This document shows, piece after piece, positions 9,616 to 51,580 of a stretch of DNA of 64,000 nt. The stretch covers positions 2,480,001 through 2,544,000 of the forward strand of contig NZ_CP016895.1 in the NCBI RefSeq assembly GCF_001704115.1, in the 5' to 3' direction. How positions within the stretch are numbered: position 1 is the stretch's first letter; each line of letters opens with the position of its first letter. The position numbers and the translations under genes were made by a program. This DNA is from Acinetobacter larvae. GTDB lineage: Bacteria; Pseudomonadota; Gammaproteobacteria; Pseudomonadales; Moraxellaceae. The notes beneath the pieces were generated by a model, which was given only the letters and a program-made list of their open reading frames with translations, was not told where the DNA came from and did no database searches.

Positions 9616-9645
9616 GACGCAACTCAATCAATACTGGCACTAAAT

Positions 9646-10535: not shown

Positions 10536-11750
10536 TTAGAAACTAAAGCCAATATTTAAATTGACGCGATACATCCATTTCTCACTATTTTCAGAAGTCG
10601 CTGAAGTAAACCCCGTGCCATTCGTTGCGCCACCAATAATATTGGCATTTTTACCCCAGGTATAATCCGCCCAAAGCATAAAGGGCGATGCAATAAACAT
10701 TGCGCCGGTGGTATTCATCTGTGAAGCTGCCCAATCACTACGTTTTTTATCGAGGTAACTATAGTCATTATAAAAACGGATGGCTTTTAATTTGCCCATA
10801 TTCTGTACGGGTAAGGTATAGGCCACATTGACACTCGCAACCGTTCCCTCAGAGGCAATAAAATATGCCGGCGTTAAACCATTTGCCCCCATTAAGGTCA
10901 TGTCTTTGTCGACGCCGGTTGGATTCTTGGCATCATATTGATAATGAATCAGTGAAGACTGTAGATTCCAGCGTTGATAGTTGCTATTACTATGTAGCCC
11001 GACAGCATAATAATGACCTTGTTTATCGGTGCTCTTATTATGCAGCTGTGCCCAAGAACCAGACAAACCCGCTTCATGTTTCCCCAACTGCGCATTGCCA
11101 AATTTATGTACCACACGTGCATTCACTTGGTTTTGCTTTTCATTTTGATAGCCAGCTTGGAACGATAAATGATTCTCCGATAAATCTTCATAAGTTGCCG
11201 ACTCTGGTGAATAACGCAAATCTGCATCTAACATACGCGGGTAATATCCCAGTTTAATATCCCAATCGGCATTGTTATACCCCCAGTTCACCCCAGGTGC
11301 AGCATTATTGCCATAGCCTAAAAAGAAGGGGATATGATAGGTCCAACCATTTTGTGGATAGGGATAAATCGCAAAAGGTTTATAAACAATACCAGCTTCA
11401 AGCCGTTGCTGATCTGTGAGTTTATAGCCGACAAAGGCTTTTTCAATTGAAGTTTTTTCTTGATCCTGTACCACGTAGCTGGCATCTAAATAAGCCTTGT
11501 CATACTGACCTTTGAGGTCTAAACGAAAAATATCAAAGTCTAATTTGCCAAAACCGCGGTTTGGACTAGCCTGCCATTGCTCATAGCGATGGTTTAAACG
11601 CACTACCCCACCGACTTTAAAAGATTTACGACCATCTGCACTGCTCCACAACAAAGGGTCTCTTTGCTCAGTCGATGCCTCAGCATAGCTATAACTGTTT
11701 AACCCCGTGCAAGATGCGACGATTGCAACGCTAGAAATTATTTTTTTCAT
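10536..11750 (-). CDS. Outer-membrane porin of the catabolic cluster
   Basis: A 404-residue protein with a signal peptide (about 1-23, ending SYA), an N-terminal strand region FKVGGVVRLNHRYEQW, many alternating beta-strand segments and a C-terminal phenylalanine (NLNIGFSF). It resembles phosphate-selective/OprP-like or related substrate-specific porins. The start has a good GGGAA ribosome-binding site. It lies 250 bp beyond the catabolic operon in the same direction, with its own leader. A 33-nt block in that leader is 28/33 identical to one upstream of the operon's first gene, so it probably brings the same substrate through the outer membrane. Substrate unknown. Confidence 0.75.
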   Translation of the reverse strand: MKKIISSVAIVASCTGLNSYSYAEASTEQRDPLLWSSADGRKSFKVGGVVRLNHRYEQWQASPNRGFGKLDFDIFRLDLKGQYDKAYLDASYVVQDQEKTSIEKAFVGYKLTDQQRLEAGIVYKPFAIYPYPQNGWTYHIPFFLGYGNNAAPGVNWGYNNADWDIKLGYYPRMLDADLRYSPESATYEDLSENHLSFQAGYQNEKQNQVNARVVHKFGNAQLGKHEAGLSGSWAQLHNKSTDKQGHYYAVGLHSNSNYQRWNLQSSLIHYQYDAKNPTGVDKDMTLMGANGLTPAYFIASEGTVASVNVAYTLPVQNMGKLKAIRFYNDYSYLDKKRSDWAASQMNTTGAMFIASPFMLWADYTWGKNANIIGGATNGTGFTSATSENSEKWMYRVNLNIGFSF

Positions 11751-11769: not shown

Positions 11770-11802
11770 CTTGTTTTATATAAAAAACATTGTTTGGTAT
11801 TT
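11770..11802 (-). promoter_or_regulatory. Leader motif shared with the catabolic operon promoter
   Basis: This 33-nt block matches 24342-24374 at 28 of 33 positions in the same orientation, and each lies 13-20 nt before the start codon of a minus-strand gene. It includes AACATTRTTTRGTATTT on the plus strand. It may be a promoter or an IclR-type operator common to porin and operon. Confidence 0.6.
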
Positions 11803-12000: not shown

Positions 12001-13641
12001 CTAGTACAATTTTTTCTGTGGCGGTCCAGCAAACTGTAATGGACCAATAGCATGCATATCCAGCTCAATAAGCGCAGGACCATCGATGGCAATGGCTTGC
12101 TGGATTGCCGTTTTAAATTCGGCAGCACTGCCTACCTTCCAACTTTTAATTCCCATGGACTCTCCTAATAAACGATAGTCTGGTGTGTGCAGTGCATTAA
12201 AATATTGTCTGCCACTAAAGTAATTGTTTTGAATGCCGCGCATTACGCCATAACCGCCGTCATTCATTACCATCAACACCATGTCGGTATTTTCCTGTGC
12301 CATAGTGGCAATTTCACCAATACCCAGCATCAAACCACCATCCCCCACCAAACCAACGACTTTCTTCGTGGGATTGGCAATCGCAGCACCAATGGCATGC
12401 GCCAAGCCTAAACCAATGGCACCCGCCAAGGAGTGAATATTTTGCTTTGGTCGCTGTACTGGAAATAGACGACTGCCCCAAGTACTGCCAGACATAGTGA
12501 TGTCACGAACAAAAATGCCATCCTCAGGGAGGGCTGCACGCAAATGATCACAAATCAAAGCATATTGATCCATTTGCTCACGTAGCTTGGCGATGGCTTG
12601 TTCACGTGCTGCGGTGATTTGCGCGTCATAGTCAGCATCTATTTTACTGAGCCCCGACATAGCCTGTAGCAAACGTGCCAAGGTGTCGCGGCTATCACCA
12701 CAAATAAATTGTGAAATCTTATAATTGCGTTGCTGTGCCATCGGACTGGCATCAATTTGAATCACCTGATCTGGAAAAGCCAAACTATAGGTTTTGGTTT
12801 CATTGCTTCTGAGGCGAGAACCCACCACCAGCAATAGATCAGCCTGTTCTAGCAGTTGCTCCACAGCCGTTGCATTGTGAAAGGCTCTTAAATTACGCGG
12901 ATGATCATCCGCCAAAACGCCACGGGCATGCGTAGACGACAGCACAGGTATCCCCAAATCAGCCAAGGCACGCACTTCGTCAACCGCATGTAAACACCCG
13001 CCACCAACCCATAGCATCGGGCGTTTGGCTGCGGTTAACTGTGCCGCAAGCGCATCGATTTCAGCTTGTTCAGCAGCAGGCAAGGCTAAGGCTTGAACTG
13101 GTGCTAAATTGGCGGGTAAATCGATTTCAGCTGCCTGTACATCGATTGGAATTTCTACACTCACCGGACCCATCGGTACAGTGGTCGCAATACGAATAGC
13201 CTCTCGAATCACCCCCACCGCATGCTCTGGACTGCTAATACGAAAAGCAGCTTTACTCGATGCTTTTAAAAAGCTGAGCTGATCTTTGGTTTCATGAATA
13301 AAACTGGCATCACGATCGAGATACTCGCGTTCAACTTGCCCAGTTAAATGCAACACTGGGCTGGCGGCATTCATAGCTTCGATTAAAGAGCCTACCGCAT
13401 TGCCAGCCCCTGCGCCAGTACTGGTCAGGGCTACGCCCAAACCTTTAAAACGAGCATGTGCATCTGCCATCGTCACCGATCCAGCTTCACCACGTGCAGC
13501 GATAAAACGAATTTTTTCACGGCGACCTATGGCATCGGCAATGGGTAAGTTATGGATGGAAATTACGCCATACAGACTCTCAACCTGATGTTGTTCCAAT
13601 ATTCTAGCGATGGCTTCGCCTACATTTACGCGTTCAGTCAT
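12001..13641 (-). CDS. Thiamine-pyrophosphate-dependent enzyme (acetolactate synthase/decarboxylase-like)
   Basis: A 546-residue protein with the three-domain layout of TPP-dependent decarboxylases and synthases. The N-terminal PYR domain carries the activating glutamate (E52 in ARGEAG), a central domain follows, and the C-terminal PP domain holds the Mg-TPP motif GDG (433-435) ... ND (460-461). The family covers benzoylformate and other 2-oxo-acid decarboxylases, acetolactate synthase and carboligases. Neighbours (ALDH, NadX-type dehydrogenase) suggest it decarboxylates a 2-oxo acid to an aldehyde that the ALDH then oxidises; this is inference. It is the last gene of the catabolic operon, with a clean AAGGAAC ribosome-binding site. 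Confidence 0.85.
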   Translation of the reverse strand: MTERVNVGEAIARILEQHQVESLYGVISIHNLPIADAIGRREKIRFIAARGEAGSVTMADAHARFKGLGVALTSTGAGAGNAVGSLIEAMNAASPVLHLTGQVEREYLDRDASFIHETKDQLSFLKASSKAAFRISSPEHAVGVIREAIRIATTVPMGPVSVEIPIDVQAAEIDLPANLAPVQALALPAAEQAEIDALAAQLTAAKRPMLWVGGGCLHAVDEVRALADLGIPVLSSTHARGVLADDHPRNLRAFHNATAVEQLLEQADLLLVVGSRLRSNETKTYSLAFPDQVIQIDASPMAQQRNYKISQFICGDSRDTLARLLQAMSGLSKIDADYDAQITAAREQAIAKLREQMDQYALICDHLRAALPEDGIFVRDITMSGSTWGSRLFPVQRPKQNIHSLAGAIGLGLAHAIGAAIANPTKKVVGLVGDGGLMLGIGEIATMAQENTDMVLMVMNDGGYGVMRGIQNNYFSGRQYFNALHTPDYRLLGESMGIKSWKVGSAAEFKTAIQQAIAIDGPALIELDMHAIGPLQFAGPPQKKLY

Positions 13642-13686
13642 TCTTTTGTTCCTTCATTCTTAATGGTGCTGGCTTCATCCTACTGG

Positions 13687-15153
13687 CTACTCAGCCCAAG
13701 GGTTGGCTTGCTCGCTTAATCCCAAATAAATACTTTTTTGCTGCATATAAGACAAAATACCGAGTCGTCCTTTTTCGCGGCCAATACCACTGTCTTTGAA
13801 GCCGCCAAATGGGGTACTCACCGAAAACTTTTTATAGGTGTTAATCCAAACCGTTCCCACCTCAAGCACACGTGCCAAACGCCAAGCGTGACGATAATTT
13901 TCAGTCCAAATACCAGCTGCCAAACCAAAACAACTGTCATTGGCCTGAGCGATCAGATCTTGTTCATCGTCATAAGCCAGCACCACCAATACAGGACCAA
14001 AGATTTCTTGCTGACAACTTTGCGCTTGATTGCTTAAACCCGTAATAATGGTCGGTGGATAATAACTCCCTTTGCTCAATTCGCCTGCAGTGAGTGCTTC
14101 ACCTCCCAGTACCACCTGCCCCCCTTCAGCCTTGGCCAACTCGACATATTGGTGCACCGACTGCAAATGTTTGGCATTGATCAACGGTCCCATATGTACA
14201 TTGGGCTGTTCTGGATGCCCCACCCTTAAGGCAGCACTGATTTCCACAATACGCTTTAACAGACGGTCATAAATTGAACGGTGAATAAACAGCCTTGATC
14301 CTGCAATACAAGCCTGCCCGGCCGAACTAAATATGCCATAAACAATCCCTTTGGCTGCCAACTCGATATCGGCATCGGCAAGTACGATGGTTGGTGACTT
14401 CCCGCCCAATTCCAACGCAGTGGTAATCAGTTTATCGGCAGCAATATGTGCCAAATGCCGTCCTGTAGTGGTTCCGCCAGTAAATGAAATCTTGCGCACC
14501 AAGGGATGCTGCGCGATGGCATCACCAATCACTGCGCCACGCCCAACCAGCACGCTCAATAGACCTTTGGGCAACCCAGCTTCTGCAAAAATTTTCGCCA
14601 GTTCCAACGCAATCAATGAAGTCGCTTCGGCAGGCTTTAAAACCACCGCATTGCCTGCAGCCAAAGCCGGTGCCAGTTTTTGTACTTCGCTGGCAATCGG
14701 TGAATTCCACGGTGTAATCGCAGCAACCACCCCCACTGGCTCATGCACACTCATGGTCATAAAATCTGCGGCACGCTGTGTGGTGAGCTCTTCATTTAAA
14801 GTCTCACATGCAGCAGCATTGAAACGTGCTGTCGCCGCCGCACTCATCACCAAGGCACGGGTTTCAGCCAAAGGCTTACCATTATCACGGGTTTGTAATT
14901 GCGCCAATTGCTCAGCACGTGCCTCAATCAAATCAGCTACACGATATAAAATTTTAGCCCGTTCATGTGGCAATGAATGACGCCATGCGGACTGACGCCA
15001 GGCTTGGTCGGCTTTCACGATTGCCTCATGCACATCATCAAGCGATGCGCTCGCAATCTCGGCATTGAGCGACTGATCCGCAGGAAAGTTACTTTGGATC
15101 ACAGGACCACGCCCTAAACGCCATTCTCCAGCGATATAAATTTCTTTTACCAT
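13687..15153 (-). CDS. NAD(P)-dependent aldehyde dehydrogenase
   Basis: A 488-residue ALDH. Visible motifs are the PWNSP segment, the catalytic glutamate in ALELGGKSP and the nucleophilic cysteine in SSAGQACIAGSR. The frame runs upstream to 15204, but the ATG at 15153 has a good AAGGA ribosome-binding site and leaves a 13-nt gap to the preceding NadX-like gene, so that start is chosen. It oxidises an aldehyde to the acid; the substrate may be the product of the TPP enzyme encoded just downstream. Part of the minus-strand catabolic operon. Confidence 0.92.
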   Translation of the reverse strand: MVKEIYIAGEWRLGRGPVIQSNFPADQSLNAEIASASLDDVHEAIVKADQAWRQSAWRHSLPHERAKILYRVADLIEARAEQLAQLQTRDNGKPLAETRALVMSAAATARFNAAACETLNEELTTQRAADFMTMSVHEPVGVVAAITPWNSPIASEVQKLAPALAAGNAVVLKPAEATSLIALELAKIFAEAGLPKGLLSVLVGRGAVIGDAIAQHPLVRKISFTGGTTTGRHLAHIAADKLITTALELGGKSPTIVLADADIELAAKGIVYGIFSSAGQACIAGSRLFIHRSIYDRLLKRIVEISAALRVGHPEQPNVHMGPLINAKHLQSVHQYVELAKAEGGQVVLGGEALTAGELSKGSYYPPTIITGLSNQAQSCQQEIFGPVLVVLAYDDEQDLIAQANDSCFGLAAGIWTENYRHAWRLARVLEVGTVWINTYKKFSVSTPFGGFKDSGIGREKGRLGILSYMQQKSIYLGLSEQANPWAE

Positions 15154-15166
15154 GGCAACAATCCTT

Positions 15167-15958
15167 TTAAATTTGAATGGCATCAACACTATTGCGGCAT
15201 GCACGGATCACGCTCAGTGCAGCTAAGGTTGAGGTTTTGGGATTGCTTGCTAAGGGCACACCAGACATTTCGATATGCATTTGTCCAAAACGCCCTGTCG
15301 CAACAATGCTATGTTTATTTTGTTGAATATGTGGATCAACACTCAGCTCCACACGGGTTTGATCCATACCTATTCCAGCCAAAGCAATGGTGGCAGCAAC
15401 ATTGGCATTGGCTGGAAAATCCAAAGCAGCCTCACGCGCTGTACCGGTATAAAACACAGTGCTTTCTGTGACCTGATCTAAATCAATCAACTGTTCGGCA
15501 TAGCTTCCTCGCCAGCTCTTGGGGCTTTTACAACCTTTATAGGTCACCTGTTCTAAGCCACCTTCTTTGGCTGCAGCTAAGCCATCAATACCTGCGATTG
15601 CACCAGCAAGCACATGTAAATGACCGCCAGAATTTTGCGCAATGTGAAGTAACTGTTGTAAAAAATCGGCATCTGCCAAAGTGCCCACTGAGATCAAGCC
15701 GAGACGCCAGCCTTTGCCTAATACCTGAGCAGCATGCTGTTTGACCGCCGCTTGACCAGCCACTTCAATCACATAGTCTGGCTGCCCCTGACAAGCCTCA
15801 ACATCACTGATCACTTGCACCGTTGCTGGTAACAGTTGTTGTACATGGGCGACACTCCGTGCAGGAACCACCACCCAACGTAGCACTAAATCTTCAGGTA
15901 AATGCTGGCGAACTTCGTTGGCCATTGCACCAAAGCCAATCATCATCAATTGTTTCAT
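15167..15958 (-). CDS. NadX-type L-aspartate dehydrogenase-like protein
   Basis: A 263-residue oxidoreductase with an N-terminal Rossmann motif (MIGFGAMANEV) and the C-terminal domain typical of NadX: DFPANANVAATIALAG, then DPHIQQNKH with a probable catalytic His (H216), then NPKTSTLAALS. NadX enzymes interconvert L-aspartate and iminoaspartate/oxaloacetate with NAD(P). Finding one inside an aromatic catabolic operon, between SDR and ALDH genes, is unusual; it may instead release or add ammonia on a pathway intermediate. My unverified recollection is that similar NadX-ALDH-TPP neighbourhoods occur in Pseudomonas. Ribosome-binding site AAGGTGAG is well placed. Confidence 0.82.
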   Translation of the reverse strand: MKQLMMIGFGAMANEVRQHLPEDLVLRWVVVPARSVAHVQQLLPATVQVISDVEACQGQPDYVIEVAGQAAVKQHAAQVLGKGWRLGLISVGTLADADFLQQLLHIAQNSGGHLHVLAGAIAGIDGLAAAKEGGLEQVTYKGCKSPKSWRGSYAEQLIDLDQVTESTVFYTGTAREAALDFPANANVAATIALAGIGMDQTRVELSVDPHIQQNKHSIVATGRFGQMHIEMSGVPLASNPKTSTLAALSVIRACRNSVDAIQI

Positions 15959-15967
15959 AGGCTCACC

Positions 15968-16762
15968 TTATATGTGTTTATTAAAGCCACCAGAGACATC
16001 AATCACAGAACCTGTGGTATAAGATGCCAATGGTGATGCCAAAAACACCAACGCTTGAGCCGCTTCTTCAGGCTTACCCAAACGCCCCATAGGAATGCCG
16101 CGTTTTTTGGCAATATTGCCAATCCACTCAGCCCAAGACTGCTCAGGATCACTGCGTTCTTGATAGCGTCGTTTCCATTGCGCAGATTCCACCATGCCCA
16201 ATAAAATTGAATTGACCCGAATCCGATCTGGGGCAAATTGATGCGCCAAGGAATGGGTTAAGTTCAGTAATGCCGCACGTGCAGATGAGGTTGCGATCAT
16301 GTGCGGCTCTGGTTGTAAGGCCAATAAAGAATTAACATTGCTAATCGATGCAGCATTTGATTGTTTTAAGGCTGGCAAAAAAGCGCGGATCGGGTGCAAA
16401 ACACTAAAATACTTCAGCTCAACTTCTTTGAGCCAGTCCTCATCTGCCGTATTGTCAAAGTTAGACACACGCCCTTGCCCAGCATTATTGATCAAGCAAT
16501 CCACACCTGAAAATTGTTGTTGTACCGCAGCAGCAAATTGCTGTACTTGCTGTTTGTCTAAAACATTACATGTCATGGTAAAGATTTTGGCATCTGGATA
16601 ACGCGACTCCATATAAGCACGTGATTGTTCTAGACGCTGTTGGTCTCGACCACACCATGCAACACGAGCGCCTTGTGCCAGTAATAATTCGACAGTTGCC
16701 AGACCGATACCAGACGAGCCGCCGGTCACAACTGCATTTTTCCCTTCTAATTGGAAGCTCAT
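15968..16762 (-). CDS. SDR-family protein with substituted catalytic Tyr and Lys
   Basis: A 264-residue short-chain dehydrogenase fold: the cofactor motif TGGSSGIG, NNAG and the C-terminal PEEAAQALVFLAS...GSVIDVSGG are intact. The catalytic serine aligns with S145, but the YxxxK active-site motif reads TSSAR (T158, R162), so both the tyrosine and the lysine are replaced. Either the reaction no longer needs classical SDR proton transfer or the protein is non-catalytic. It sits 9 nt before nadX and 9 nt after the hydrolase gene within the catabolic operon. Confidence 0.85.
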   Translation of the reverse strand: MSFQLEGKNAVVTGGSSGIGLATVELLLAQGARVAWCGRDQQRLEQSRAYMESRYPDAKIFTMTCNVLDKQQVQQFAAAVQQQFSGVDCLINNAGQGRVSNFDNTADEDWLKEVELKYFSVLHPIRAFLPALKQSNAASISNVNSLLALQPEPHMIATSSARAALLNLTHSLAHQFAPDRIRVNSILLGMVESAQWKRRYQERSDPEQSWAEWIGNIAKKRGIPMGRLGKPEEAAQALVFLASPLASYTTGSVIDVSGGFNKHI

Positions 16763-16771
16763 TTCCCTATC

Positions 16772-17599
16772 TCACATCTTTGCGTCATGAAGTGACAATA
16801 AAATTTGATTGAACTGTGTGGCTTGGTCCAAATAACTCAGGTGCCCTGCCTGTTCAAGCGCATAACACGACTGCAGCTGAAACTGATCTGCCAAGTCCTG
16901 AATATCTTGTGGCGGTGTGATGCCATCCAACATAGCTTTAATGACATGGGTATGGGCTTGTTGTGGACGCAAATAACGCTTTATAGCGTCATAGGCCAGT
17001 AAATACGATGCCGCAGTAAAACCAGCCAAGCCAATGCCTTGCATCATGACGGTGATCAAGTGCAAAACCTCTGCCGAACAATGCGCAGCCAAATGCGGTC
17101 CACGCAATTTAGCCATGCCAATCGCACCCAATTGTTGCAACATTTGCGGTCGCTTGGCATAAACCTCAGCTTGCTGTGCCGCATCTGCGCTGTAATAGCC
17201 TTGTGCTGGATTGGCCAATATCAGTGCGCGTACATATTCGGGATAACTCGCCTGAAATGCCGCCGCCTGCATAGCCCCCAAGGAGTGCCCCAGTAAAATG
17301 ACCTGTTTCACTCCCAACGCATCCAACCATGCTTTGAGACGATGGGCATAATCCAGCGCATTAGGCTGATCGGTTGCCAAAACATCGGATTGACCATACC
17401 CCGGTGCATCCCACGCCAGCACATGAAAATGCGGACTTAAGGCCTGCAGCTGTTTTAGCCATGCACCTGAGCCAGAACTGATACCATGTAACAACACCAG
17501 ATCTGGTCCTTGACCGGCTTCACGATAAGACTGCTGCACACCGGCTAAATCGATATGCTTTACTTCAAACTGTGCCAATTGTTCAACCAAAGTCATCAT
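16772..17599 (-). CDS. Alpha/beta-hydrolase (meta-cleavage-product hydrolase-like)
   Basis: A protein of about 275 residues with the alpha/beta-hydrolase fold: LLHGISSGSGAW oxyanion segment, nucleophile elbow LLGHSLGAM, an acid in the AMLDGITPP region and catalytic His in EQAGHLSYLD. This is the size and motif set of carbon-carbon hydrolases that act on extradiol ring-cleavage products, and the operon also has an extradiol-type dioxygenase. Several ATGs lie close together; the ones near 17599 have the best spacing to an AGGA site (an ATG also exists at 17605). Confidence 0.85.
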   Translation of the reverse strand: MMTLVEQLAQFEVKHIDLAGVQQSYREAGQGPDLVLLHGISSGSGAWLKQLQALSPHFHVLAWDAPGYGQSDVLATDQPNALDYAHRLKAWLDALGVKQVILLGHSLGAMQAAAFQASYPEYVRALILANPAQGYYSADAAQQAEVYAKRPQMLQQLGAIGMAKLRGPHLAAHCSAEVLHLITVMMQGIGLAGFTAASYLLAYDAIKRYLRPQQAHTHVIKAMLDGITPPQDIQDLADQFQLQSCYALEQAGHLSYLDQATQFNQILLSLHDAKM

Positions 17600-17720
17600 G
17601 GTCATCCTGTTGTTCCAAACTGCTATTTCGATCAGCTGCGTCGCTAGACCACCATCAATGGGTCAAACGCTTTAAATTTTGCGCCTCGCTGCGTACAACG
17701 ACGCGCTTTGCCCCTTATCA

Positions 17721-18242
17721 TTAACGCTTAATTTTTGACAAAGGATGCTCAGGTGGATAGTTCGGGATGGTCGGTTTGCCGGTTCCCAGCATCACACACA
17801 TCAAGGCATCATCCTGACCTGGGTTAAAGAGACCACGATAAATACCCGGTGGAATCGAAATCAAATCGCGCTCTTTTAAACGGGTTGAGAATTTCTCACC
17901 GTCATGTTCAATAAATAGATCAATCTCACCACGTAGCATAAAAAACACTTCTTCTACGTCATGGTGGATGTGTAATGGTCCTTCGCATTGTGGCGGCAAC
18001 ACCATGGTAGAGAAGGTAAAATTCTCAGCAGGCACGGTATTGCTATCATTGGCGACCCCTGTTGCACCCGTTCCCATATAGCGCATTTGTGCACGGCGAT
18101 ATTTGGGGTCATAGTCGGCTTGAAATTTCAAGGCATTAAAATCGTATTTACGCGTTTCAAAGCGTGCGATACGCCCAGCAATCCAATCTGCCAATGATTG
18201 ACCTTCCGGTTGTTTCCATGATTCAAATTGTTGTGTAGACAT
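17721..18242 (-). CDS. Cupin-domain protein
   Basis: A 173-residue protein with one cupin fold: metal-binding motif HIHHDVEEVFFMLRGEID (two His, then Glu) and the second motif LISIPPGIYRGLFN. Single-domain cupins of this kind act as dioxygenases, isomerases or binding proteins in catabolic operons. The ribosome-binding site AGGAGCAG is strong. A role in converting a pathway intermediate is likely but not specified by the sequence. It is flanked by 115-bp and 137-bp gaps, the largest inside this operon. Confidence 0.75.
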   Translation of the reverse strand: MSTQQFESWKQPEGQSLADWIAGRIARFETRKYDFNALKFQADYDPKYRRAQMRYMGTGATGVANDSNTVPAENFTFSTMVLPPQCEGPLHIHHDVEEVFFMLRGEIDLFIEHDGEKFSTRLKERDLISIPPGIYRGLFNPGQDDALMCVMLGTGKPTIPNYPPEHPLSKIKR

Positions 18243-18306
18243 AATCTGCTCCTGTTTATTGCAACGTGATCAAAAGATCCGCTGCCGCATCTGTACCTTC
18301 AAGCGG

Positions 18307-18335
18307 TCTAAAGTTCTAAGCTTCTAAAGTTCTAA
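18307..18335. repeat. 13-bp direct repeat in the cupin leader
   Basis: TCTAAAGTTCTAA occurs twice, three bases apart, upstream of the cupin gene. It could be a small duplication or a regulator site. Confidence 0.5.
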
Positions 18336-18379
18336 CATGTTGTCAGTCCAAGTCTGTCGCCTCGACCGAGCATGCCGCG

Positions 18380-19603
18380 CTAGTAGCGTTGTAGTAAGGG
18401 TGCCAAGAAAAATGCCCCAATCACTGCAACAGCTGCCAAAAAGCTAATGCCGATATTAAAACTGCCGGTTTGCATCACAATGGCACCAATCACCACCGGT
18501 GCCGCTGCACTGGCAAAATTACCCAGTCCATTAAAAATTCCACCTGCTGTTGCGCCCACATCGGCTGTGGTAATCCGTGCTAATAGGGCAAATACTGCGG
18601 CGACCCCAAAGCCCCACGCCATGGCACTTAAGGACATGGCAACAATGACCAGCATCGGATCGTGTGCCAAGACCATCAAGTACATAAAAATACCTGCCAC
18701 CAAAAGTCCCGCACTGACTTGTATAGCGCGGCGTCCCCAACGATCTGAAATAAACGCCCCGAATACTTCACCCAGCAACATGGCGATAAACGGTAAGCTG
18801 GAATAAATACCAAATTCTTTTAAGTTAAAGCCTTTGTCTTGGATTAAATAAGACGGCACCCAGCTGTTTAATCCCCATAAGTACGTCATCAACGCAATGT
18901 TAAAAATACACAGCAACCAAAAAGCACCATTGCTGATCAAACGCTGGGTATTCTTTAAGTGGGTTTTAAAATTGACCCGTTTCCCTACGCCTTCCAGATC
19001 AACCGTACGTTTCAACTGCAAGTCTTTTAGGCCATACACAATCAAAGCCAAGACCACAAAAGTCATCGCACCCATGACAAAAAAGGTGCTATGCCAATCG
19101 TAATGTGCCAAGACAAAGGCTGTGATCGGAAAACCTAAAAACGCGCCGATGGGGGTACCCAACAAGAACATGGTTGATGCTCTGGCTTGCTGACGATCGG
19201 TATAAGTCTGTTTAACAATGGTATAAGCCAAGGCAAACAGCGGACCTTCTGCCAACCCCAATAACACCCGTAAAGTCAGCATGGTGCTATAGTCGGTGGT
19301 GAAGCCCATTAAAATCATGAGAATGCCCCATGAGGTCACACTCCAAAACAACATTTTTTTCGGGCTAAAAATATCGCCCAAAAAACTCAGAAACATTGAA
19401 GAAAAACCGTATGCCAACAGAAAGCTGGTCATCAGCCAACCGAGTTTGGCTTTGTCCTGCGCAATCCCCATGGCGTGTTGAAAGGTTGCGTCAGAAAACA
19501 ATACTGCGATGCTGATCTTGTCAAAAAAAGCCAATACCACGCAGATCATTAAAATGGTCGCAGGTATCCAATGCTTAATCCCTGTTTTTGCATCATTATC
19601 CAT
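18380..19603 (-). CDS. MFS transporter (anion:cation symporter type)
   Basis: A 407-residue transporter with about 12 transmembrane helices and an MFS loop motif after TM2 (GDIFSPKKMLF) and its counterpart in the second half (SDRWGRRAIQV). The pattern fits the ACS family, which imports organic acids and aromatic acids. Its place inside the operon makes it the likely inner-membrane importer of the pathway substrate. Clean AAAGGA ribosome-binding site. Confidence 0.85.
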   Translation of the reverse strand: MDNDAKTGIKHWIPATILMICVVLAFFDKISIAVLFSDATFQHAMGIAQDKAKLGWLMTSFLLAYGFSSMFLSFLGDIFSPKKMLFWSVTSWGILMILMGFTTDYSTMLTLRVLLGLAEGPLFALAYTIVKQTYTDRQQARASTMFLLGTPIGAFLGFPITAFVLAHYDWHSTFFVMGAMTFVVLALIVYGLKDLQLKRTVDLEGVGKRVNFKTHLKNTQRLISNGAFWLLCIFNIALMTYLWGLNSWVPSYLIQDKGFNLKEFGIYSSLPFIAMLLGEVFGAFISDRWGRRAIQVSAGLLVAGIFMYLMVLAHDPMLVIVAMSLSAMAWGFGVAAVFALLARITTADVGATAGGIFNGLGNFASAAAPVVIGAIVMQTGSFNIGISFLAAVAVIGAFFLAPLLQRY

Positions 19604-19647
19604 GTAAAATCCTTTAATTCATGGTCTAATACTATGATTTTTAACAG

Positions 19648-20856
19648 CTATTTTAGTTTCATCAGATTAAATTCTGGATCTTGCAACTGTGCTGGATCCA
19701 ACTGACGTGCGCTGCTCATCCATCGTTTAGCCAGTTTGACCCATTTCGCTTCATTGACCGCAATCATATTGAGTAACTGCTGTTGTTGATCCAGATAAAA
19801 AAAACTAAGCTGGCGATCCGACACTTTGCGGAGAATGACTTGCTGCGTTTTTTCTGGCTGATAAGTCCCTAAAATTTGAATATTGCAGTCATATTGATCA
19901 GACCATAACCAAGGAATATCTTGGTAGGCTGTCATATCACCCAACATCGACTTCGCTGTTGCAATCGCTTGATTTTGTGCATTTGCCCAAGACTGAATGC
20001 AATACCCCAAGCTGGGGTGAATCGCGACATCTCCTGCCGCATAAATATTGGCATCCGAACTTTGCCCATAGGCATTCACCACAATGCCATCTTTACTGTC
20101 GAGCCCAGCCTGTAATGCCAGCTCCTTGGCAATGTCAGCTCCCGCGCCCACCACCACACAGTCAAATTGCTGTAATTTCACATCGGCATTAAACACTTCG
20201 ATACGCTGACTACTGCTTTCAATCAGATGCAACTGGGTTGCATTTAAATGAATCTGAGTGCCCATTGCTTGGTGTAACTGCAACAAAAAGTCTGAAACTT
20301 CTGGGCTCACACTACGCGCACAAAGCCTGCTGCCATACTCAAAAATATCAACTTTTTTACCTTGTTTGCGTGCAGTCGCAGCAATTTCCAAACCAATCCA
20401 GCCGCCACCAATGACCGCAACATGCTCAGCGCTCGCCAATTTGTCAGCCAATTGCTGGCAATCTTGGATATCGCGTAGGGTATACACATGCTGCATACTC
20501 GACCAAGTCAAAACAGGTATGCGCGCACGGCTGCCTGTGGCAAGCAGTAATTTGTCATAAGCTAAGACTTTGCCACTTTGCAGCTGCACCGTTTGCGCGG
20601 TCTTATCCACATCAATCGCGATATCTGGTTTATGCCAAGTAATCGCAAATGCATCGACCTGATCCTTCGAAAATAAATTCAAACTTTCTAGCGTCGCTTC
20701 ACGCGATAACACCGCTTTAGACAAAGGCGGGCGTTCATAAAACACTTGTTCTTCGTTGGACACCACATGAATTTCACCCGCAAAGCCTTGATCACGTAAG
20801 GTATGTACAGCCCATCCTGCCGCTTGCCCGGCTCCAACAATCACGATTCGATCCAT
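19648..20856 (-). CDS. FAD-dependent ferredoxin reductase of the Rieske oxygenase system
   Basis: A 402-residue flavoprotein: FAD-binding GAGQAAGWAVHTLRDQG at the N-terminus, a second Rossmann motif IGGGWIGLEIAATARKQG for NAD(P)H at about 150, the second FAD motif YAAGDVA near 265, and a C-terminal reductase domain with a WSDQYD motif. This is the BphA4/CamA type reductase, passing electrons from NAD(P)H to the Rieske ferredoxin encoded at the head of the same operon, and thence to the oxygenase. Ribosome-binding site AGGAG. Confidence 0.92.
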   Translation of the reverse strand: MDRIVIVGAGQAAGWAVHTLRDQGFAGEIHVVSNEEQVFYERPPLSKAVLSREATLESLNLFSKDQVDAFAITWHKPDIAIDVDKTAQTVQLQSGKVLAYDKLLLATGSRARIPVLTWSSMQHVYTLRDIQDCQQLADKLASAEHVAVIGGGWIGLEIAATARKQGKKVDIFEYGSRLCARSVSPEVSDFLLQLHQAMGTQIHLNATQLHLIESSSQRIEVFNADVKLQQFDCVVVGAGADIAKELALQAGLDSKDGIVVNAYGQSSDANIYAAGDVAIHPSLGYCIQSWANAQNQAIATAKSMLGDMTAYQDIPWLWSDQYDCNIQILGTYQPEKTQQVILRKVSDRQLSFFYLDQQQQLLNMIAVNEAKWVKLAKRWMSSARQLDPAQLQDPEFNLMKLK

Positions 20857-20885
20857 ATTGTTGTGCTCCTATTCCCTGCGCTTTG

Positions 20886-21815
20886 CTAAGCTGATTTAAC
20901 TTGGCGACGTGTATCGTGATCTAAACCACCTTCAATCGCCCATTCAGTAAATAAAGCCAAGCTATGTTCTTCTTCGCGTGGCTGCCAATCTGCAGTGAGA
21001 TAGTCATCATTGGTGTAGTACTCAAAAGCCCCACCCAATGGTGAATGGACATACCAGAAATAAGCAGATGAAATTGGATGACGCCCAGGTCCAATAAAAG
21101 TTGACCATGCTTGACGATTCATCGCCAGACCGCCACCAATTACTTCATGGATATCACGGACCACAAACGCCACATGGTTTAGTCCCGCCGGCTTATTGGG
21201 GATCGACAATAAAAACAAATCGTGATGAAAAGCTTCGGCACGGCAGCGTAAGAATGCACCGCGGGCACGATAGGCATCAGATAAATAAAAACCTAATTTT
21301 TCAATATAAAATGCCTGCGTCTTCGCCAAATCTGGCGTGAAAAATACCACATGACCAATATCGACGGGTTGCGCCTGCTCATACACCGGGCTGGCGGCAT
21401 TGATACGTTGCACATTGCCATATTGATTAATGCCCGCAGTTTTCGCCGTAGGCACAGGCTGGGTTATACTGTGCTGAAAAACCAATGTCATGCCATTGGG
21501 ATCACGACATTGTAGTTGTGTCGCATGCTGTACAAAGCCGTCTACATCGGCAAGTTTCTCCGCCAAATGCGTTAAATCTTCAAGCTGATCAACCCCCCAA
21601 GTAACTTCACGTAAAGTCGAACCTGCTTCTATTGCCGCTGGCAAACGCGCATCATGCCAGTCATATAGATAAATTTTGCAGCCGTTTTGGGTCTGATATA
21701 AATCCGTCGCCTCAATGTCAGACAGCGCTGCTTGCAAACCAAAATCAGTCAAAAAACGCTGTGCTTCTTGGCGGTTCTCCACACCGAACTTGAGCACTTC
21801 TATCCCTGTAATCAT
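20886..21815 (-). CDS. Extradiol (VOC-type) ring-cleavage dioxygenase
   Basis: A two-module vicinal-oxygen-chelate protein of about 309 residues. The C-terminal module has all three metal ligands of BphC-type extradiol dioxygenases: His in DIGHVVFF, His in GLNHVAF and Glu in GGAFEYYTNDDY (H155, H214, E265 from the chosen start). It probably opens a catechol-like ring next to the hydroxyls. The ATG at 21815 has an AAGGAGA site and avoids overlapping the upstream SDR gene, so it is preferred to the longer frame reaching 21848. Between SDR and ferredoxin reductase genes in the operon. Confidence 0.88.
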   Translation of the reverse strand: MITGIEVLKFGVENRQEAQRFLTDFGLQAALSDIEATDLYQTQNGCKIYLYDWHDARLPAAIEAGSTLREVTWGVDQLEDLTHLAEKLADVDGFVQHATQLQCRDPNGMTLVFQHSITQPVPTAKTAGINQYGNVQRINAASPVYEQAQPVDIGHVVFFTPDLAKTQAFYIEKLGFYLSDAYRARGAFLRCRAEAFHHDLFLLSIPNKPAGLNHVAFVVRDIHEVIGGGLAMNRQAWSTFIGPGRHPISSAYFWYVHSPLGGAFEYYTNDDYLTADWQPREEEHSLALFTEWAIEGGLDHDTRRQVKSA

Positions 21816-21825
21816 GTGTTTCTCC

Positions 21826-22590
21826 TTAATTAAACACAAAGCCGCCATTCACTGGAATATTCTGCCCCGTGACAAAGGAAGACATTTCAGACAGCAAATA
21901 CAGCACCGTACCATTGACATCTTCAGGATGTTGCTGGCGTTGAATGGCACGTCCATTTACATACAAATCATGGCGTTGTTGTGGCACATACTGTGTCGCT
22001 TCTACCAAAGTCAAACCAGGACTAACGGTATTGACACAAATGTTGTATTCACCCAATTCACTGGCCATCGCACGGGTCATGGCAATCAAAGCGCCTTTAC
22101 TCGCCACATAGGCCAACAATTTCGGCGCCCCCCACAAGGCGGTATCTGAGGCAATATTGACAATTTTGCCCTGACCCGATGCTTGCAAATGAGGAACACA
22201 GGCTTGGCTAACCAACCAAGTCCCTTTGACATTGACTGTCATCACCCGATCCCAAAGTGCTTCGTCATGTTGTTGCATGCCAACCCCACCGACCCCTGTT
22301 GCTAAGGCGGCGCAATTGACCAAGCCATCTAGCCCACCCAACCGCTGCACAGCAACCTCGACCGCCTGCTGAATCGACTGTTTCTGGCTAATATCCATGC
22401 TAACCGCACTGACCTTCAAGCCTTGGGCAGCCAATTGTGCCGCCTCATGCTGTACTTGATTGGTCAAGATATCGGCCATGACCACATGCGCACCCGCATG
22501 GGCGATGGCTGCGGCAAAATCTCGTCCCAATCCTCGTGCAGCACCGGTGAGCAAAATCCGTTTATTGCTTAAAATTTCAGGGCTAAGCAT
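21826..22590 (-). CDS. SDR dehydrogenase, probably cis-dihydrodiol dehydrogenase
   Basis: A 254-residue classical short-chain dehydrogenase with TGAARGLG, NCAA, a catalytic Ser in VNIASDTA and an intact YVASK motif. Placed directly after the Rieske oxygenase gene (their ends overlap by 8 nt) and before the extradiol enzyme, it is well placed to oxidise a cis-dihydrodiol to the catechol. The ATG at 22590 with an AGGA site is used; the open frame reaches 22632 inside the oxygenase gene. Confidence 0.88.
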   Translation of the reverse strand: MLSPEILSNKRILLTGAARGLGRDFAAAIAHAGAHVVMADILTNQVQHEAAQLAAQGLKVSAVSMDISQKQSIQQAVEVAVQRLGGLDGLVNCAALATGVGGVGMQQHDEALWDRVMTVNVKGTWLVSQACVPHLQASGQGKIVNIASDTALWGAPKLLAYVASKGALIAMTRAMASELGEYNICVNTVSPGLTLVEATQYVPQQRHDLYVNGRAIQRQQHPEDVNGTVLYLLSEMSSFVTGQNIPVNGGFVFN

Positions 22591-23653
22591 GTGAAATATC
22601 CTGCATGCGAATACGACTACTGTCTTGCGCATCCTGTAAAGCTTGAATTTTTTTAAGCTGTTTTTCAGCTTCTTTTTTCATCATGCGGCGTAAGCGTGCC
22701 AAGCCGACATCATGCTGATATAAGAACTCATGTTGCCGCGCATTGGGCGCCAGATTTTCAAGAATAATGCGGTCTTGTTCCAAAACATCCCAGTGTAATT
22801 TTTCCAGATGATTACGATATAAAAAGCGCCAGACATTACGCTGCCAACCACTGACCTTACGACAACGCCAGAAAAATACGCGGGTATTGTGCTCATCAAT
22901 CGGGGTTGCAAAACCAACAATCCAGAACTCCCCACCCGGTCCAAACTGCTTACGATATGGAATCGATAAACGCAGCCATGCTGCACCCGTTTGACCGTAC
23001 TCTACCCAGTCAAAGTTCACGCCAGTTTGACCTTCTTTTTCAAATACAAAGCCATGTGGTGTTGCACGATGTTTCATTTCTGCCGTGCGTTCACCTTCCG
23101 CCATGGAGTGCGATGTGCAATGCAAATAAGTACCGTGCATTGGGTCCATAACATTATCAATGGCATATTGATGATTTACCTTCCAATCCGCCATACATAG
23201 AAATGAGCTCCACTCAGCATCACACAATTGATCAGGTAAATTCAGATCAGCTGCTGGCGCTTGTACATCCACCCCGAACCAGACAAAAATTGCATCATGC
23301 ATTTCTTTGACTGCATAAGCCTTCACGCAATCACTGCCTTTTAACGGACAGTCACTCACAGCAGGCACATCAACCACCGTACCGTCATGACCAACCTCTA
23401 CACCGTGATACCAACACGCCACGCGATCGCCTAAATTCCAACCGAGTGATAAACGTGCACCACGATGTGGACAGCGATCTTCTAGTGCATGCACCACGCC
23501 ATCGCCATCACGCCACAACACAATATTTTCCCCAAGACGGGTAATACCGACAGGATTTGCACCCACTTCCCAACTGGCCAAAACTGGATACCATTGATCT
23601 CGCAAACCCAGCGCTAAATATTTTTCAATATCAATTGCTATTGTCATCATCAT
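22583..23653 (-). CDS. Rieske non-heme iron oxygenase, alpha subunit
   Basis: A 356-residue oxygenase. The Rieske [2Fe-2S] centre is complete: C61-P-H63 and C80-WY-H83. The catalytic mononuclear iron ligands are visible in DPMHGTYLH (D170 region, H173, H178), with a likely third ligand further on. The length and single-subunit layout match homomeric ring-hydroxylating or demethylating oxygenases (vanillate, dicamba and carbazole enzyme group), not the two-subunit dioxygenases; no beta-subunit gene is present. Electrons should come from the ferredoxin and reductase of the same operon. Three consecutive ATGs start the frame; the third is best spaced from AAGGA. The substrate is unknown. Confidence 0.93.
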   Translation of the reverse strand: MMMTIAIDIEKYLALGLRDQWYPVLASWEVGANPVGITRLGENIVLWRDGDGVVHALEDRCPHRGARLSLGWNLGDRVACWYHGVEVGHDGTVVDVPAVSDCPLKGSDCVKAYAVKEMHDAIFVWFGVDVQAPAADLNLPDQLCDAEWSSFLCMADWKVNHQYAIDNVMDPMHGTYLHCTSHSMAEGERTAEMKHRATPHGFVFEKEGQTGVNFDWVEYGQTGAAWLRLSIPYRKQFGPGGEFWIVGFATPIDEHNTRVFFWRCRKVSGWQRNVWRFLYRNHLEKLHWDVLEQDRIILENLAPNARQHEFLYQHDVGLARLRRMMKKEAEKQLKKIQALQDAQDSSRIRMQDISHA

Positions 23654-23667
23654 GTCCTTATTTATGA

Positions 23668-23967
23668 TTAATAACCCAAACGTTGCATTTCACTGGAAAA
23701 ACACTCGATGGTCCAAAGCTCACCATCTTCATTTCTAAATCCTTGCTGATTCAGTGTGCTAACCAAATCATTGAGCTGGGTGACGTCATTGCTAAACGCT
23801 TGTATTAAATGCTGAACAAAATCCATTTCATATTGGCTGGGTATTTTGCTGCGGTTTTGCCACACCAAATGTTCGACCTGACCGGGGATTTGAATATTGT
23901 TAATTCCTGCGTCCTTTGAAGGCGTCGCATTAATCCATCTGGCTAGCTTTTCATTGAACTCTTTCAT
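23668..23967 (-). CDS. Small protein with recombinase-like helix-turn-helix
   Basis: A 99-residue protein between the Rieske ferredoxin and oxygenase genes. The C-terminal half (LVSTLNQQGFRNEDGELW... to the end) looks like the small helix-turn-helix seen in serine recombinases, although no recombinase catalytic domain exists. Small proteins of this kind are, to my recollection, annotated beside Rieske oxygenase genes in other proteobacteria. It might be a regulator or an accessory of the oxygenase. Ribosome-binding site AAGGAAG is good, so it is a real gene. Confidence 0.7.
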   Translation of the reverse strand: MKEFNEKLARWINATPSKDAGINNIQIPGQVEHLVWQNRSKIPSQYEMDFVQHLIQAFSNDVTQLNDLVSTLNQQGFRNEDGELWTIECFSSEMQRLGY

Positions 23968-24023
23968 TGAGGGCTTCCTTTTGCTCGCTGTTGATTGCCT
24001 GCTTTTTGCTTACTGTTGCTTTT

Positions 24024-24329
24024 TTAAAGTTGAATTTGTACTTCTCCATTCTCAACACGCACAGGGTAAACACATAAATTTCTACAACCTGGCCCGCTCT
24101 CTAAGACACCACTTTCAAGATTAAAAATTGCTTCATGCAATGGGCATTCCACTGTATTGCCTTCGATAAATCCTTCAGTCAGCAGTGCATAGGCATGAGG
24201 ACAAACATTTTCAACCGCAAAATAATTTTCCTCGATCACAAAAATACCAATACTTTTGTCATCTACAGCAACGGCTTTGGGTTCCTCCTCAGCAACATCA
24301 TCAATCTTACAAACAGAGATCCAGTTCAT
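24024..24329 (-). CDS. Rieske-type [2Fe-2S] ferredoxin
   Basis: A 101-residue Rieske ferredoxin with both cluster-binding motifs: C-P-H in ENVCPHAYALL and C-P-L-H in VECPLHEAIF. It carries electrons from the ferredoxin reductase to the Rieske oxygenase. It is the first gene of the 13-gene minus-strand catabolic operon and has a strong GGAAGAAGAG ribosome-binding region. The upstream 260 bp, shared with the divergent IclR gene, must hold the operon's promoter. Confidence 0.93.
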   Translation of the reverse strand: MNWISVCKIDDVAEEEPKAVAVDDKSIGIFVIEENYFAVENVCPHAYALLTEGFIEGNTVECPLHEAIFNLESGVLESGPGCRNLCVYPVRVENGEVQIQL

Positions 24330-24341
24330 GTGCTCTTCTTC

Positions 24342-24374
24342 CTTGTTTCATATGCAAAACATTATTTAGTATTT
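24342..24374 (-). promoter_or_regulatory. Operon leader motif shared with the porin; nearby palindrome
   Basis: This block is 28/33 identical to 11770-11802 in front of the porin. Partly overlapping it is an imperfect palindrome, AGTATTTGAAACACT (24368-24382), with one arm mismatch, which is a reasonable size for an IclR-family operator. A shorter, gapped resemblance (TTGTTTTATATA..AAACATTG) also lies at 24488-24508 in front of the IclR gene. Confidence 0.55.
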
Positions 24375-24589
24375 GAAACACTAGAAATAGCATAAGCTTT
24401 AAGCGATTTATTTGTCAAATCTTATATTTATATATTTTTCAATGATTTACATTAAAATTGATTTTTTATTATTTTGATTATGAAATATTGTTTTATATAT
24501 AAACATTGAGATATAAAAACTAGCGCGCTAAAATGACGCAGCGCATTTCTTTTCACTCTGGGAATGTCATCCTTTCTTATTAGGTCACA

Positions 24590-25408
24590 ATGCCAATGAA
24601 CTCTACAAATATTCTTTTAAAGCAAGACACTGAGGCTAATTTAGATGATCGTTATTTGGTACCTGGTTTGGTACGTGGCTTGGCCATCCTCAAATTATTT
24701 GATCAACATCATCAAGAAATGACCATTTCTGAAATTGCAGAAAAACTAGCAGTGAATCGTTCTAGTGCATTTCGTTTAATCCATACCTTAGAACATTGCG
24801 GCTATTTAAGAAAAATGTCGCAAAAAACCTATGCACTGAATAGCAATGTGATGGAACTAGGGTTCAATAGTTTATCTAAATCTTCTTTAATTGATATTGC
24901 GACACCCATTATGCGGGAACTCCGCGATCAAATTGAAATTGCTGTGCATTTATCAATTTTAGACAATACCCATATTGTTTTTGTCAGCAATGTGCAATCC
25001 AATGGTCCATTCACCAGTAATATCCATATTGGTACACGCTGGCCGGCACATGCCACCGTCATTGGGCAATTGGCTTTATCTCAACTGAGTGAAGCAGAAG
25101 TGATTGCACGTTATGAAAACTTTAATGATTGGCAGGTTTATTCAGAACGTACGCCAAAAAATTTAGACGCGTTATTAAAACGCCTTGAAGACGTGCGGCA
25201 ACAAGCCTTTATGATCAGTTGGGGGCATTTCAATCATGATATGGCAGCCTGTGCTGCACCCATTTATAGTCAAGCCACCCAACAAATTAGTGCTATATTA
25301 TCCGTTAGTTGCCCGCTTAGCAGTTATTCTGAAGCAGAGTTTAGCAATGAGGTTTCAAAAAATGTTGTCGCATATGCCGATAAAATTTCAAAGTTTATTT
25401 ATAAATAA
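24590..25408 (+). CDS. IclR-family transcriptional regulator of the catabolic operon
   Basis: A 272-residue regulator with an N-terminal winged helix (VRGLAILKLFDQHHQEMTISEIAEKLAVNRSSAFRLIHTLEHCGYL) and the C-terminal IclR effector-binding domain (LRDQIEIAVHLSILDN, then GTRWPAHATVIGQLAL). It is transcribed divergently from the 13-gene operon across a 260-bp gap and is the obvious local regulator; family members bind the pathway substrate or an intermediate and can activate or repress. An AGGTC site precedes the ATG. Confidence 0.92.
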   Translation: MPMNSTNILLKQDTEANLDDRYLVPGLVRGLAILKLFDQHHQEMTISEIAEKLAVNRSSAFRLIHTLEHCGYLRKMSQKTYALNSNVMELGFNSLSKSSLIDIATPIMRELRDQIEIAVHLSILDNTHIVFVSNVQSNGPFTSNIHIGTRWPAHATVIGQLALSQLSEAEVIARYENFNDWQVYSERTPKNLDALLKRLEDVRQQAFMISWGHFNHDMAACAAPIYSQATQQISAILSVSCPLSSYSEAEFSNEVSKNVVAYADKISKFIYK

Positions 25409-33014: not shown

Positions 33015-33359
33015 ATTCAAGCTGCGCTCAAATCCGTACAGCCTTGTGGCAAGCTGCAAGGCTGTACGTTGATATTGATCCTTAAATCATATCCTTGCCT
33101 CGCATCATCGTCACCCAACCCCGCAGCACTATGCGCAAATGATCGCGCACTACAATGTGTGGCTCAACACAGCAATGTGGCATCCTTAGTTGAATATCAA
33201 AATTGCAGTGAAAAGCCTTGTAAATCGCACCTTTTACCATGAAATTGCGATCAAACAAACAACTAGAACATTCATTTTCAAGTTACAGCTTTATTACATT
33301 GCACTGAATATTTTTTTGCATACAATAACCCCCTTCCATGGTCTTAAACGTGTCAGATT
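33015..33359. other. Spacer between the two permease genes
   Basis: Holds a hairpin just after the first permease and, further on, the unassigned promoter of the second. No gene recognised. Confidence 0.5.
33036..33067 (+). terminator. Hairpin after first permease gene
   Basis: A perfect 11-bp inverted repeat (GTACAGCCTTG and complement) with 10-nt loop, 22 nt after the stop. The T tract is poor. Confidence 0.55.
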
Positions 33360-51365: not shown

Positions 51366-51580
51366 ATAAGGTTCCGTACAACACGCGTCAATTATTTTCT
51401 CTGTGACATTTTAGAGTAGCGTAATGCTTAAACAAGGCAATCATTTCATGTCAATTGCATATAAATGTTACAAAAAATTAAAATAATTTCGGTTCATGCT
51501 CTGAATGGGTTTATTTGCGTATACAATAAATTCTACGTTGATTGTGATCAACCCTAATTTTTATCGCATTGGTTCAAAAT

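Follow-up and report, generated by a model that had tools for sequence, protein, structure and literature searches.

A widely conserved Rieske oxygenase operon of Acinetobacter larvae as a probable gene set for kynurenate breakdown

Kynurenate (4-hydroxyquinoline-2-carboxylate) is a product of tryptophan and, in animals, a host immune and neural signal. Its breakdown by the quinoline pathway of tryptophan catabolism, in the work of Hayaishi and Behrman, reportedly runs via a 7,8-dihydrodiol and 7,8-dihydroxykynurenate to cleavage of the 8,8a bond, followed by side-chain reduction, decarboxylation and aldehyde oxidation; the intermediates are those of KEGG map 00380 (EC 1.14.99.2, 1.3.1.18 and 1.13.11.10). 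To our knowledge the pathway stands as 1960s biochemistry in Pseudomonas extracts, and we know of no genes or sequences assigned to it. Here we describe a thirteen-gene operon at positions 12001-24329 of a 64,000-nucleotide stretch (the window) of the Acinetobacter larvae genome, which is a single contig of 3.74 Mb. From its predicted enzymes, the substrate of the operon is most likely kynurenate, which the encoded proteins would take up and degrade completely under aerobic conditions. The initial annotation could match the genes to no known pathway; that view is not upheld, as the set fits the classical kynurenate pathway enzyme class by enzyme class. Among the matches listed from the open-licence literature, no paper names kynurenate degradation genes or assigns this operon a substrate.

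Compared with the quinoline pathway, the operon holds candidate genes for the dioxygenase, the diol dehydrogenase, the extradiol enzyme, the reduction, the decarboxylation and the aldehyde oxidation. The nah pathway for naphthalene-type bicyclic compounds is similar in having a Rieske dioxygenase, a diol dehydrogenase, an extradiol enzyme, a 2-oxo acid side chain and an aldehyde dehydrogenase, but there a hydratase-aldolase cuts off pyruvate, whereas here a thiamine pyrophosphate (TPP) enzyme would remove CO2. In the bph, xyl and mhp meta-cleavage pathways a hydratase and an aldolase follow ring cleavage; Pfam and NCBIfam scans found neither family among the operon proteins, as the initial annotation had noticed. 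In vitamin B6 degradation, AAMS hydrolase (3kxp) is related to the alpha/beta hydrolase of the operon (E 1e-14), and the N-acyl enamine substrate proposed for the latter is chemically alike. That system opens its ring with a flavin oxygenase, and the alpha/beta hydrolase resembles AAMS hydrolase no more closely than it does BphD.

All thirteen open reading frames (ORFs) lie on the minus strand and none contains an internal stop, in keeping with the thirteen same-strand genes first noted. Their order is ferredoxin, HTH_62, Rieske alpha, short-chain dehydrogenase/reductase (SDR), VOC, reductase, MFS, cupin, alpha/beta hydrolase, a second SDR (SDR2), NadX, aldehyde dehydrogenase (ALDH) and TPP enzyme, with families assigned by Pfam and NCBIfam profile matches. 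We place the starts of the ALDH, VOC and first SDR genes near 15159, 21815 and 22590, not at the longest-ORF starts. The GC content is 0.45-0.49 in the operon versus 0.38-0.42 just outside it.

In the proposed route the Rieske oxygenase alpha subunit (22583-23653; Rieske and VanA_C), served by its Rieske-type ferredoxin (24024-24329; Pfam Rieske/Rieske_2) and a ferredoxin--NAD(P)H reductase (19648-20856; Pyr_redox_2 and Reductase_C), would act as a kynurenate 7,8-dioxygenase, and the resulting 7,8-dihydrodiol would be converted to 7,8-dihydroxykynurenate by the classical SDR (21826-22590; adh_short_C2) as dihydrodiol dehydrogenase. The VOC extradiol dioxygenase (20886-21815), a relative of homoprotocatechuate 2,3-dioxygenases, would cut the 8,8a bond as a 7,8-dihydroxykynurenate 8,8a-dioxygenase to give 5-(3-carboxy-3-oxopropenyl)-4,6-dihydroxypicolinate. 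The atypical SDR2 (15968-16762) would then reduce the propenyl double bond, the TPP enzyme (12001-13641) would decarboxylate the 2-oxo acid side chain to an aldehyde, and ALDH (13687-15159; Aldedh, 560 bits) would oxidise the aldehyde to 5-(2-carboxyethyl)-4,6-dihydroxypicolinate, a beta-keto lactam. Two hydrolyses of this lactam by the alpha/beta hydrolase (16772-17605) and the cupin (17721-18242; Cupin_2) would yield glutarate and iminosuccinate; NadX (15167-15958) would reduce the iminosuccinate to L-aspartate, and glutarate would proceed via glutaryl-CoA. We infer from sequence both the substrate and the step given to each enzyme, above all the reduction by the atypical SDR and the two hydrolyses.

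The atom balance of this scheme closes at all eight entries computed, from kynurenate to CO2, glutarate and aspartate. Each catalytic gene receives a step, and the cupin and the hydrolase are left for the two hydrolyses. On the carbon map of kynurenate, N1-C2(COOH)-C3-C4 is the skeleton of aspartate and C8a-C4a-C5-C6-C7 that of glutarate, so that an aspartate dehydrogenase and the lack of a hydratase and aldolase are both expected. The initial annotation had proposed a nitrogen-containing or unusual side chain; a nitrogen-containing substrate is supported, but the nitrogen would be in the fused ring and not in a side chain. Indole-3-acetate and anthranilate catabolism were also considered, and the gene set does not fit these pathways. 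If the assignment to kynurenate is true, the operon would contain the genes for enzymes described some sixty years ago, and consumption of kynurenate may be widespread among the common bacteria of soils and hosts.

The thirteen genes form a real, widely conserved catabolic operon. Comparisons were made over a set of 64 loci that was hand-chosen, not random, and comprises related loci of unequal lengths. Gene order was compared in 46 Acinetobacter loci and is kept with few exceptions, mostly contig ends, and a rearranged set is found in Klebsiella, Caballeronia, Paracoccus, Novosphingobium, Nitratireductor, Pseudosulfitobacter, Cupriavidus, Burkholderia, Halomonas and Streptomyces; besides Acinetobacter, Klebsiella and Halomonas, the taxa thus span Burkholderiaceae, alphaproteobacteria and Streptomyces. 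The recurring order in Acinetobacter and the rearranged set in distant taxa argue against a chance assembly. Genes for the TPP enzyme, NadX, ALDH, SDR2, VOC and alpha/beta hydrolase are all present in 57 of the 64 loci and the cupin gene in 63. Six of the seven incomplete loci (L053, L057, L061, L074, L089 and L091) are explicable by contig ends or stretch limits. The clear exception to the gene order in Acinetobacter is an A. junii locus (L050), which is without the genes from ferredoxin through MFS and keeps those from cupin to TPP enzyme and the porin gene; the genome has no Rieske relative at E <= 1e-20, and the operon reads as decaying or changed. Within Acinetobacter, 52 of 149 genomes carry the Rieske gene (E <= 1e-60). 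Two fused proteins (P0175 and P0194) were dropped as evidence, as they resemble reading-frame or deletion artefacts.

The oxygenase module is complete, with alpha subunit, ferredoxin and reductase recognised by Pfam as the electron chain that had been proposed, and a diol dehydrogenase gene beside them. The classical SDR, whose dihydrodiol-type label is supported, accompanies the Rieske gene in 48 of the 49 loci of the 64-locus set that carry one. A gene for a 99-residue HTH_62 protein (23668-23967; PF20552, 85 bits) lies between the ferredoxin and oxygenase genes and was detected in 36 of these 49 loci; its product is possibly an accessory to the oxygenase, and the family name 'recombinase-like helix-turn-helix' may mislead.

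Several related loci have further genes beside the conserved set. A flavin hydroxylase is present in 25 of the 64 loci, with tropone 2-monooxygenase and 6-hydroxynicotinate 3-monooxygenase as its best solved relatives, and all six plasmid records with this hydroxylase at >=60% also carry the TPP gene. Twelve of the 25 hydroxylase loci, versus none of the other 39, have a sulfatase gene (a Pfam assignment; the best NCBIfam match, arylsulfatase, is below cut-off), always together with TRAP transporter genes. Nine of these twelve loci are from Halomonadaceae or Saccharospirillum and three from one family outside the class. In our reading, the flavin hydroxylase would hydroxylate the phenol xanthurenate and so reach the 7,8-diol of the kynurenate route, and a sulfate ester of xanthurenate would be a source. 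The Rieske gene is present in 24 of the 25 hydroxylase loci, which makes the flavin hydroxylase an addition and not a replacement; the exception is a V. nigripulchritudo plasmid record in which the hydroxylase matches in two pieces. The idea that the hydroxylase replaces the Rieske module in Halomonas was wrong: all twelve genomes concerned (Halomonadaceae, Natronospirillum and Saccharospirillum) have a Rieske gene, 67-70% identical, within about 4 kb of the stretch end in eleven and about 11 kb in one, contig identity being assumed. In Acinetobacter the flavin hydroxylase is found in 5 of 46 loci, many flanks being too short to tell, and in the A. baylyi type strain (L046:101-1246) it lies beside the IclR gene and has its own operator-like palindrome.

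Oxidation of quinaldate at position 4 is catalysed by a molybdenum enzyme. Molybdenum hydroxylase genes of two different types occur near the operon in four of the 64 loci (L089, G328, G255 and L180), and they fit such a 4-oxidation, although similarity does not fix their substrate. In one of them, plasmid pNK84 of Caballeronia sp. NK8 (L089:16263-25494), the Rieske, TPP and VOC set adjoins genes for the three subunits of a molybdenum hydroxylase and for a CoxG-like protein, with a second TPP and VOC pair nearby. Weak matches near G208 and G238 (26-32%, large and medium subunits) were not counted. On plasmid pSA2 of Novosphingobium resinovorum (L090:5324-9549), a GH3 glycosidase and a TonB receptor lie beside the core, hinting at a glycosylated substrate.

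A broader reading is tentative, and we rate it somewhat below an even chance: the seven-enzyme core (VOC, cupin, alpha/beta hydrolase, SDR2, NadX, ALDH and TPP enzyme) would be a general route for 4-hydroxyquinoline-2-carboxylates that meet at 7,8-dihydroxykynurenate, with a new ring opening by cupin and alpha/beta hydrolase that releases aspartate and glutarate, and with a function for the atypical SDR family. Entry would be by the Rieske module for kynurenate, by flavin hydroxylase, TRAP transporter and sulfatase for xanthurenate and its sulfate ester, and by molybdenum hydroxylase for quinaldate. Animal-associated bacteria with such a route could remove host kynurenines. The same modules bear on a rival explanation, in which the chemistry is unchanged and the main substrate is another benzo-fused N-heteroaromatic acid, such as quinaldate or a substituted 4-hydroxyquinoline-2-carboxylate, kynurenate being a side substrate or unused. 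The molybdenum hydroxylases, the flavin hydroxylases with or without sulfatase and the GH3 gene of L090 do suggest a range wider than one compound. However, nothing in the A. larvae genome is closely related to the flavin hydroxylase (29% at best), and a substrate without the 4-hydroxy group would leave no beta-keto lactam after cleavage and no iminosuccinate by two hydrolyses. We consider this alternative unlikely.

The NadX protein (NF009828, 422 bits, cut-off 177) aligns with the A. fulgidus enzyme (2dc1), H216 and the active-site stretch NPKTS included. Excerpts of one report (PMC5554190) describe purified aspartate dehydrogenases from K. pneumoniae 34618 and Delftia sp. Cs1-4 and their characterisation on aspartate/oxaloacetate. 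K. pneumoniae carries the operon (L006), and two genomes with neighbours shared with L006 (G166 and G279) have one NadX homologue each (E <= 1e-25), so that the operon is very probably the source of the enzyme characterised from K. pneumoniae. A role for NadX in NAD biosynthesis was set aside: no nadA/nadC-like gene was noticed beside it, although no family search was aimed at these genes. The TPP enzyme (NF005470, PRK07064; 853 bits, cut-off 495) belongs to a family described merely as thiamine pyrophosphate-binding protein; it fits a predicted 2-oxo acid decarboxylase, and its gene and that of the ALDH are both in the operon. These three enzymes would by themselves be a sensible series, from amino acid dehydrogenase to 2-oxo acid decarboxylase to ALDH, for shortening the amino acid side chain of a monocyclic aromatic. 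This explanation is improbable: those NadX relatives that have been characterised use aspartate/oxaloacetate, on the excerpted evidence above, the operon's protein retains the stretch with NPKTS and His, and the ring product would still need the hydratase and aldolase that the operon is without. If the kynurenate assignment is true, it would give aspartate dehydrogenases a catabolic role.

The VOC metal ligands H155, H214 and E265 are intact, with a conservation of 97% or more across an alignment of 97 sequences, which supports the extradiol enzyme and the meta-cleavage start of the initial annotation. Against curated NCBIfam models the protein scores 78 of the 321 bits required for HpaD and 41 of 366 for BphC, and the alpha/beta hydrolase reaches 59 of the 462 bits set for BphD; both are far below the cut-offs of the classical meta-pathway enzymes. 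An ordinary meta-cleavage pathway with hydratase and aldolase encoded elsewhere, in which NadX, the TPP enzyme and ALDH would be passengers, would account for the resemblance of the two proteins to the HpaD and BphD families, but given these scores and the constancy of the supposed passengers across the 64 loci we give it next to no credence.

The hydrolase has conserved S108, D227 and H255, and its AlphaFold model (mean pLDDT 96) matches the folds of esterases, an enol-lactonase and C-C hydrolases; in sequence its relatives are BphD/HsaD and AAMS hydrolase. The label of C-C hydrolase, while reflecting the resemblance to the BphD family, is not secure in view of the score, and the bond it cleaves may instead be in a beta-keto lactam or an amide; an N-acyl enamine is also proposed as its substrate. 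In the cupin, H91, H93, E97 and E98 are conserved in the alignment. SDR2 (NF005468, PRK07062; 451 bits, cut-off 266) was correctly seen as atypical: Thr158 and Arg162 replace Tyr and Lys and, like K117 and S145, show a conservation of 97% or more across 107 sequences. The best match to its model (pLDDT 83, with a poor C-terminus) is Q9HYA2 of P. aeruginosa (3lf1/3lf2), which is 56% identical, was solved also with NADPH and is titled as having an atypical catalytic centre. Its tetrad, presumably Lys, Ser, Thr and Arg, occupies the places corresponding to those of SDR2. We know of no function for Q9HYA2; the operon gives this SDR a pathway context and, if the kynurenate scheme is true, the structural-genomics orphan a function.

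Genes for the fate of glutarate and the origin of kynurenate were sought in the genomes. A. larvae has an acyl-CoA dehydrogenase that, among solved structures, matches glutaryl-CoA dehydrogenases best (E 9e-218), the human enzyme among them, though its score to the NCBIfam model is 208 bits, below the cut-off of 470. Beside it lies a CoA-transferase gene (484 bits to the succinate-glutarate family, below the cut-off of 750), and no CsiD was found in this genome. GcdH-like genes occur in 11 of 13 operon genomes, A. larvae included, versus 159 of 385 others (p 0.002, Fisher). Either GcdH or CsiD is present in 11 of 12 operon-bearing genomes; of the two among the 13 without GcdH, one has CsiD. 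Tryptophan 2,3-dioxygenase occurs in 9 of 12 operon genomes versus 98 of 386 others (p 0.0006, Fisher), and lies within about 15 kb of nadX only in G208, with apparently unrelated genes between. The 'other' genomes may include carriers, as 16 of the 17 uninspected NadX matches belong to the 398-genome sample. Two observations were dropped: the tryptophan dioxygenase and kynureninase genes of G208, about 10 kb from the hydrolase gene, as linkage, with apparently unrelated genes between, and a CoA-transferase and acyl-CoA dehydrogenase beside L093, as glutarate genes, being below curated cut-offs.

A number of points weigh against kynurenate as the substrate. The nearest solved relatives of the Rieske alpha subunit are phthalate, carbazole and dicamba oxygenases, with 2-oxoquinoline 8-monooxygenase among further matches, and these do not fix a substrate. 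The cupin matches solved structures weakly, mostly 3-hydroxyanthranilate dioxygenases (best E 0.0035), so it has no informative relative and its proposed hydrolytic role is unproven; reduction of a double bond with NADPH by the atypical SDR is likewise fitting but unproven. NadX alone is not diagnostic of the operon, which is absent from 13 of the 25 NadX neighbourhoods examined (42 genomes besides A. larvae were NadX-positive, and 17 weaker matches were left out). The Fisher tests are confounded by lineage and genome size, and neither a GcdH nor a CsiD route for glutarate was found in operon-bearing G279. No tryptophan or kynurenine genes were seen inside the operon, and tryptophan 2,3-dioxygenase is absent from the A. 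larvae genome, so that an external supply of kynurenate would be needed. PA3505 is, we take it, the aspartate dehydrogenase of P. aeruginosa. Its requirement in three of four host-like media by Tn-seq, in the available part of the study (PMC9732424), points to another role in that species. P. aeruginosa, the source of Q9HYA2, also secretes kynurenate, reaching around 100 uM when kynU is mutated (PMC4938989, in excerpt), so the atypical SDR alone does not mean kynurenate use. Reports on aspartate dehydrogenase activity in K. pneumoniae conflict, as far as the excerpts go (PMC5554190). Lastly, a review, in the portion available, gives glutamate, alanine and organic acids as what pseudomonads make from kynurenate, with Horibata et al. 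1961 as its source (PMC11354673); the aspartate and glutarate proposed here differ from the glutamate and alanine of this tracer work and could feed those products, though not named among them.

Two genes outside 12001-24329 belong to the system, a porin-like gene (10536-11750) and a divergent IclR-family regulator gene on the plus strand (24590-25408; IclR_C, 154 bits). The porin-like protein has no Pfam match, and its identity is read from relatives; its gene follows the TPP gene by <=400 nt in 41 of 46 Acinetobacter loci. With the MFS transporter (18380-19603; MFS_1, 199 bits), proposed for substrate uptake, it agrees with the uptake genes of the initial annotation. Between the IclR and ferredoxin genes, 41 of 42 Acinetobacter loci have the exact palindrome GTTTTN6AAAAC; these loci are of related species and not independent, and 104 such sites occur across their 947 kb. 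In the window, GTTTTNNATATAAAAC at 11773-11788 is an exact minus-strand match 23 bases before the porin gene and the sole exact copy in the genome. A site with one mismatch (24345-24360) lies just upstream of the ferredoxin gene, and a second operator-like site (24490-24505) has two. At <=2 mismatches the window has nine strand matches at seven places versus 1.6 expected; one-mismatch sites across the genome are noise (13 strand matches versus 14 for a reversed-pattern control). The A. baylyi type strain has only two exact copies, before the operon and before the flavin hydroxylase gene beside IclR, and a one-mismatch copy before its porin gene; its one-mismatch sites number 19 versus 7 for the reversed control, and one other that matches on both strands (C7:651198) is flanked by genes for an XRE-cupin regulator and an AzlC-like protein, which seem unrelated. 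By this layout the IclR regulator would bind the palindrome and control the operon and the porin gene, making the porin a proposed regulon member.

According to an excerpt on A. baumannii (PMC4328036), a lux insertion in A1S_0947 led back to the A1S_0944-A1S_0945 gap, which is described as having possible promoters. Mucin raises A1S_0954 and A1S_0956-0958 2.2-3.7-fold, and these tags are annotated as hydrolase, aspartate dehydrogenase, aldehyde dehydrogenase and acetolactate synthase in the part of that study consulted (PMC5757984). We infer from their order and names that the A1S_ tags are this operon.

Elsewhere in the window, on the downstream side of the operon, a FecR-type anti-sigma gene and an ECF sigma factor gene (8096-9627) probably belong to an unrelated iron-uptake system. 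A tandem pair of similar amino acid permease ORFs (31581-34790), the first being AA_permease by Pfam, is followed by a DDE transposase ORF (34895-36436), and a single ORF at 51569-53248 combines RNase H and exonuclease (RNase_T) domains, resembling an rnhA-dnaQ fusion.

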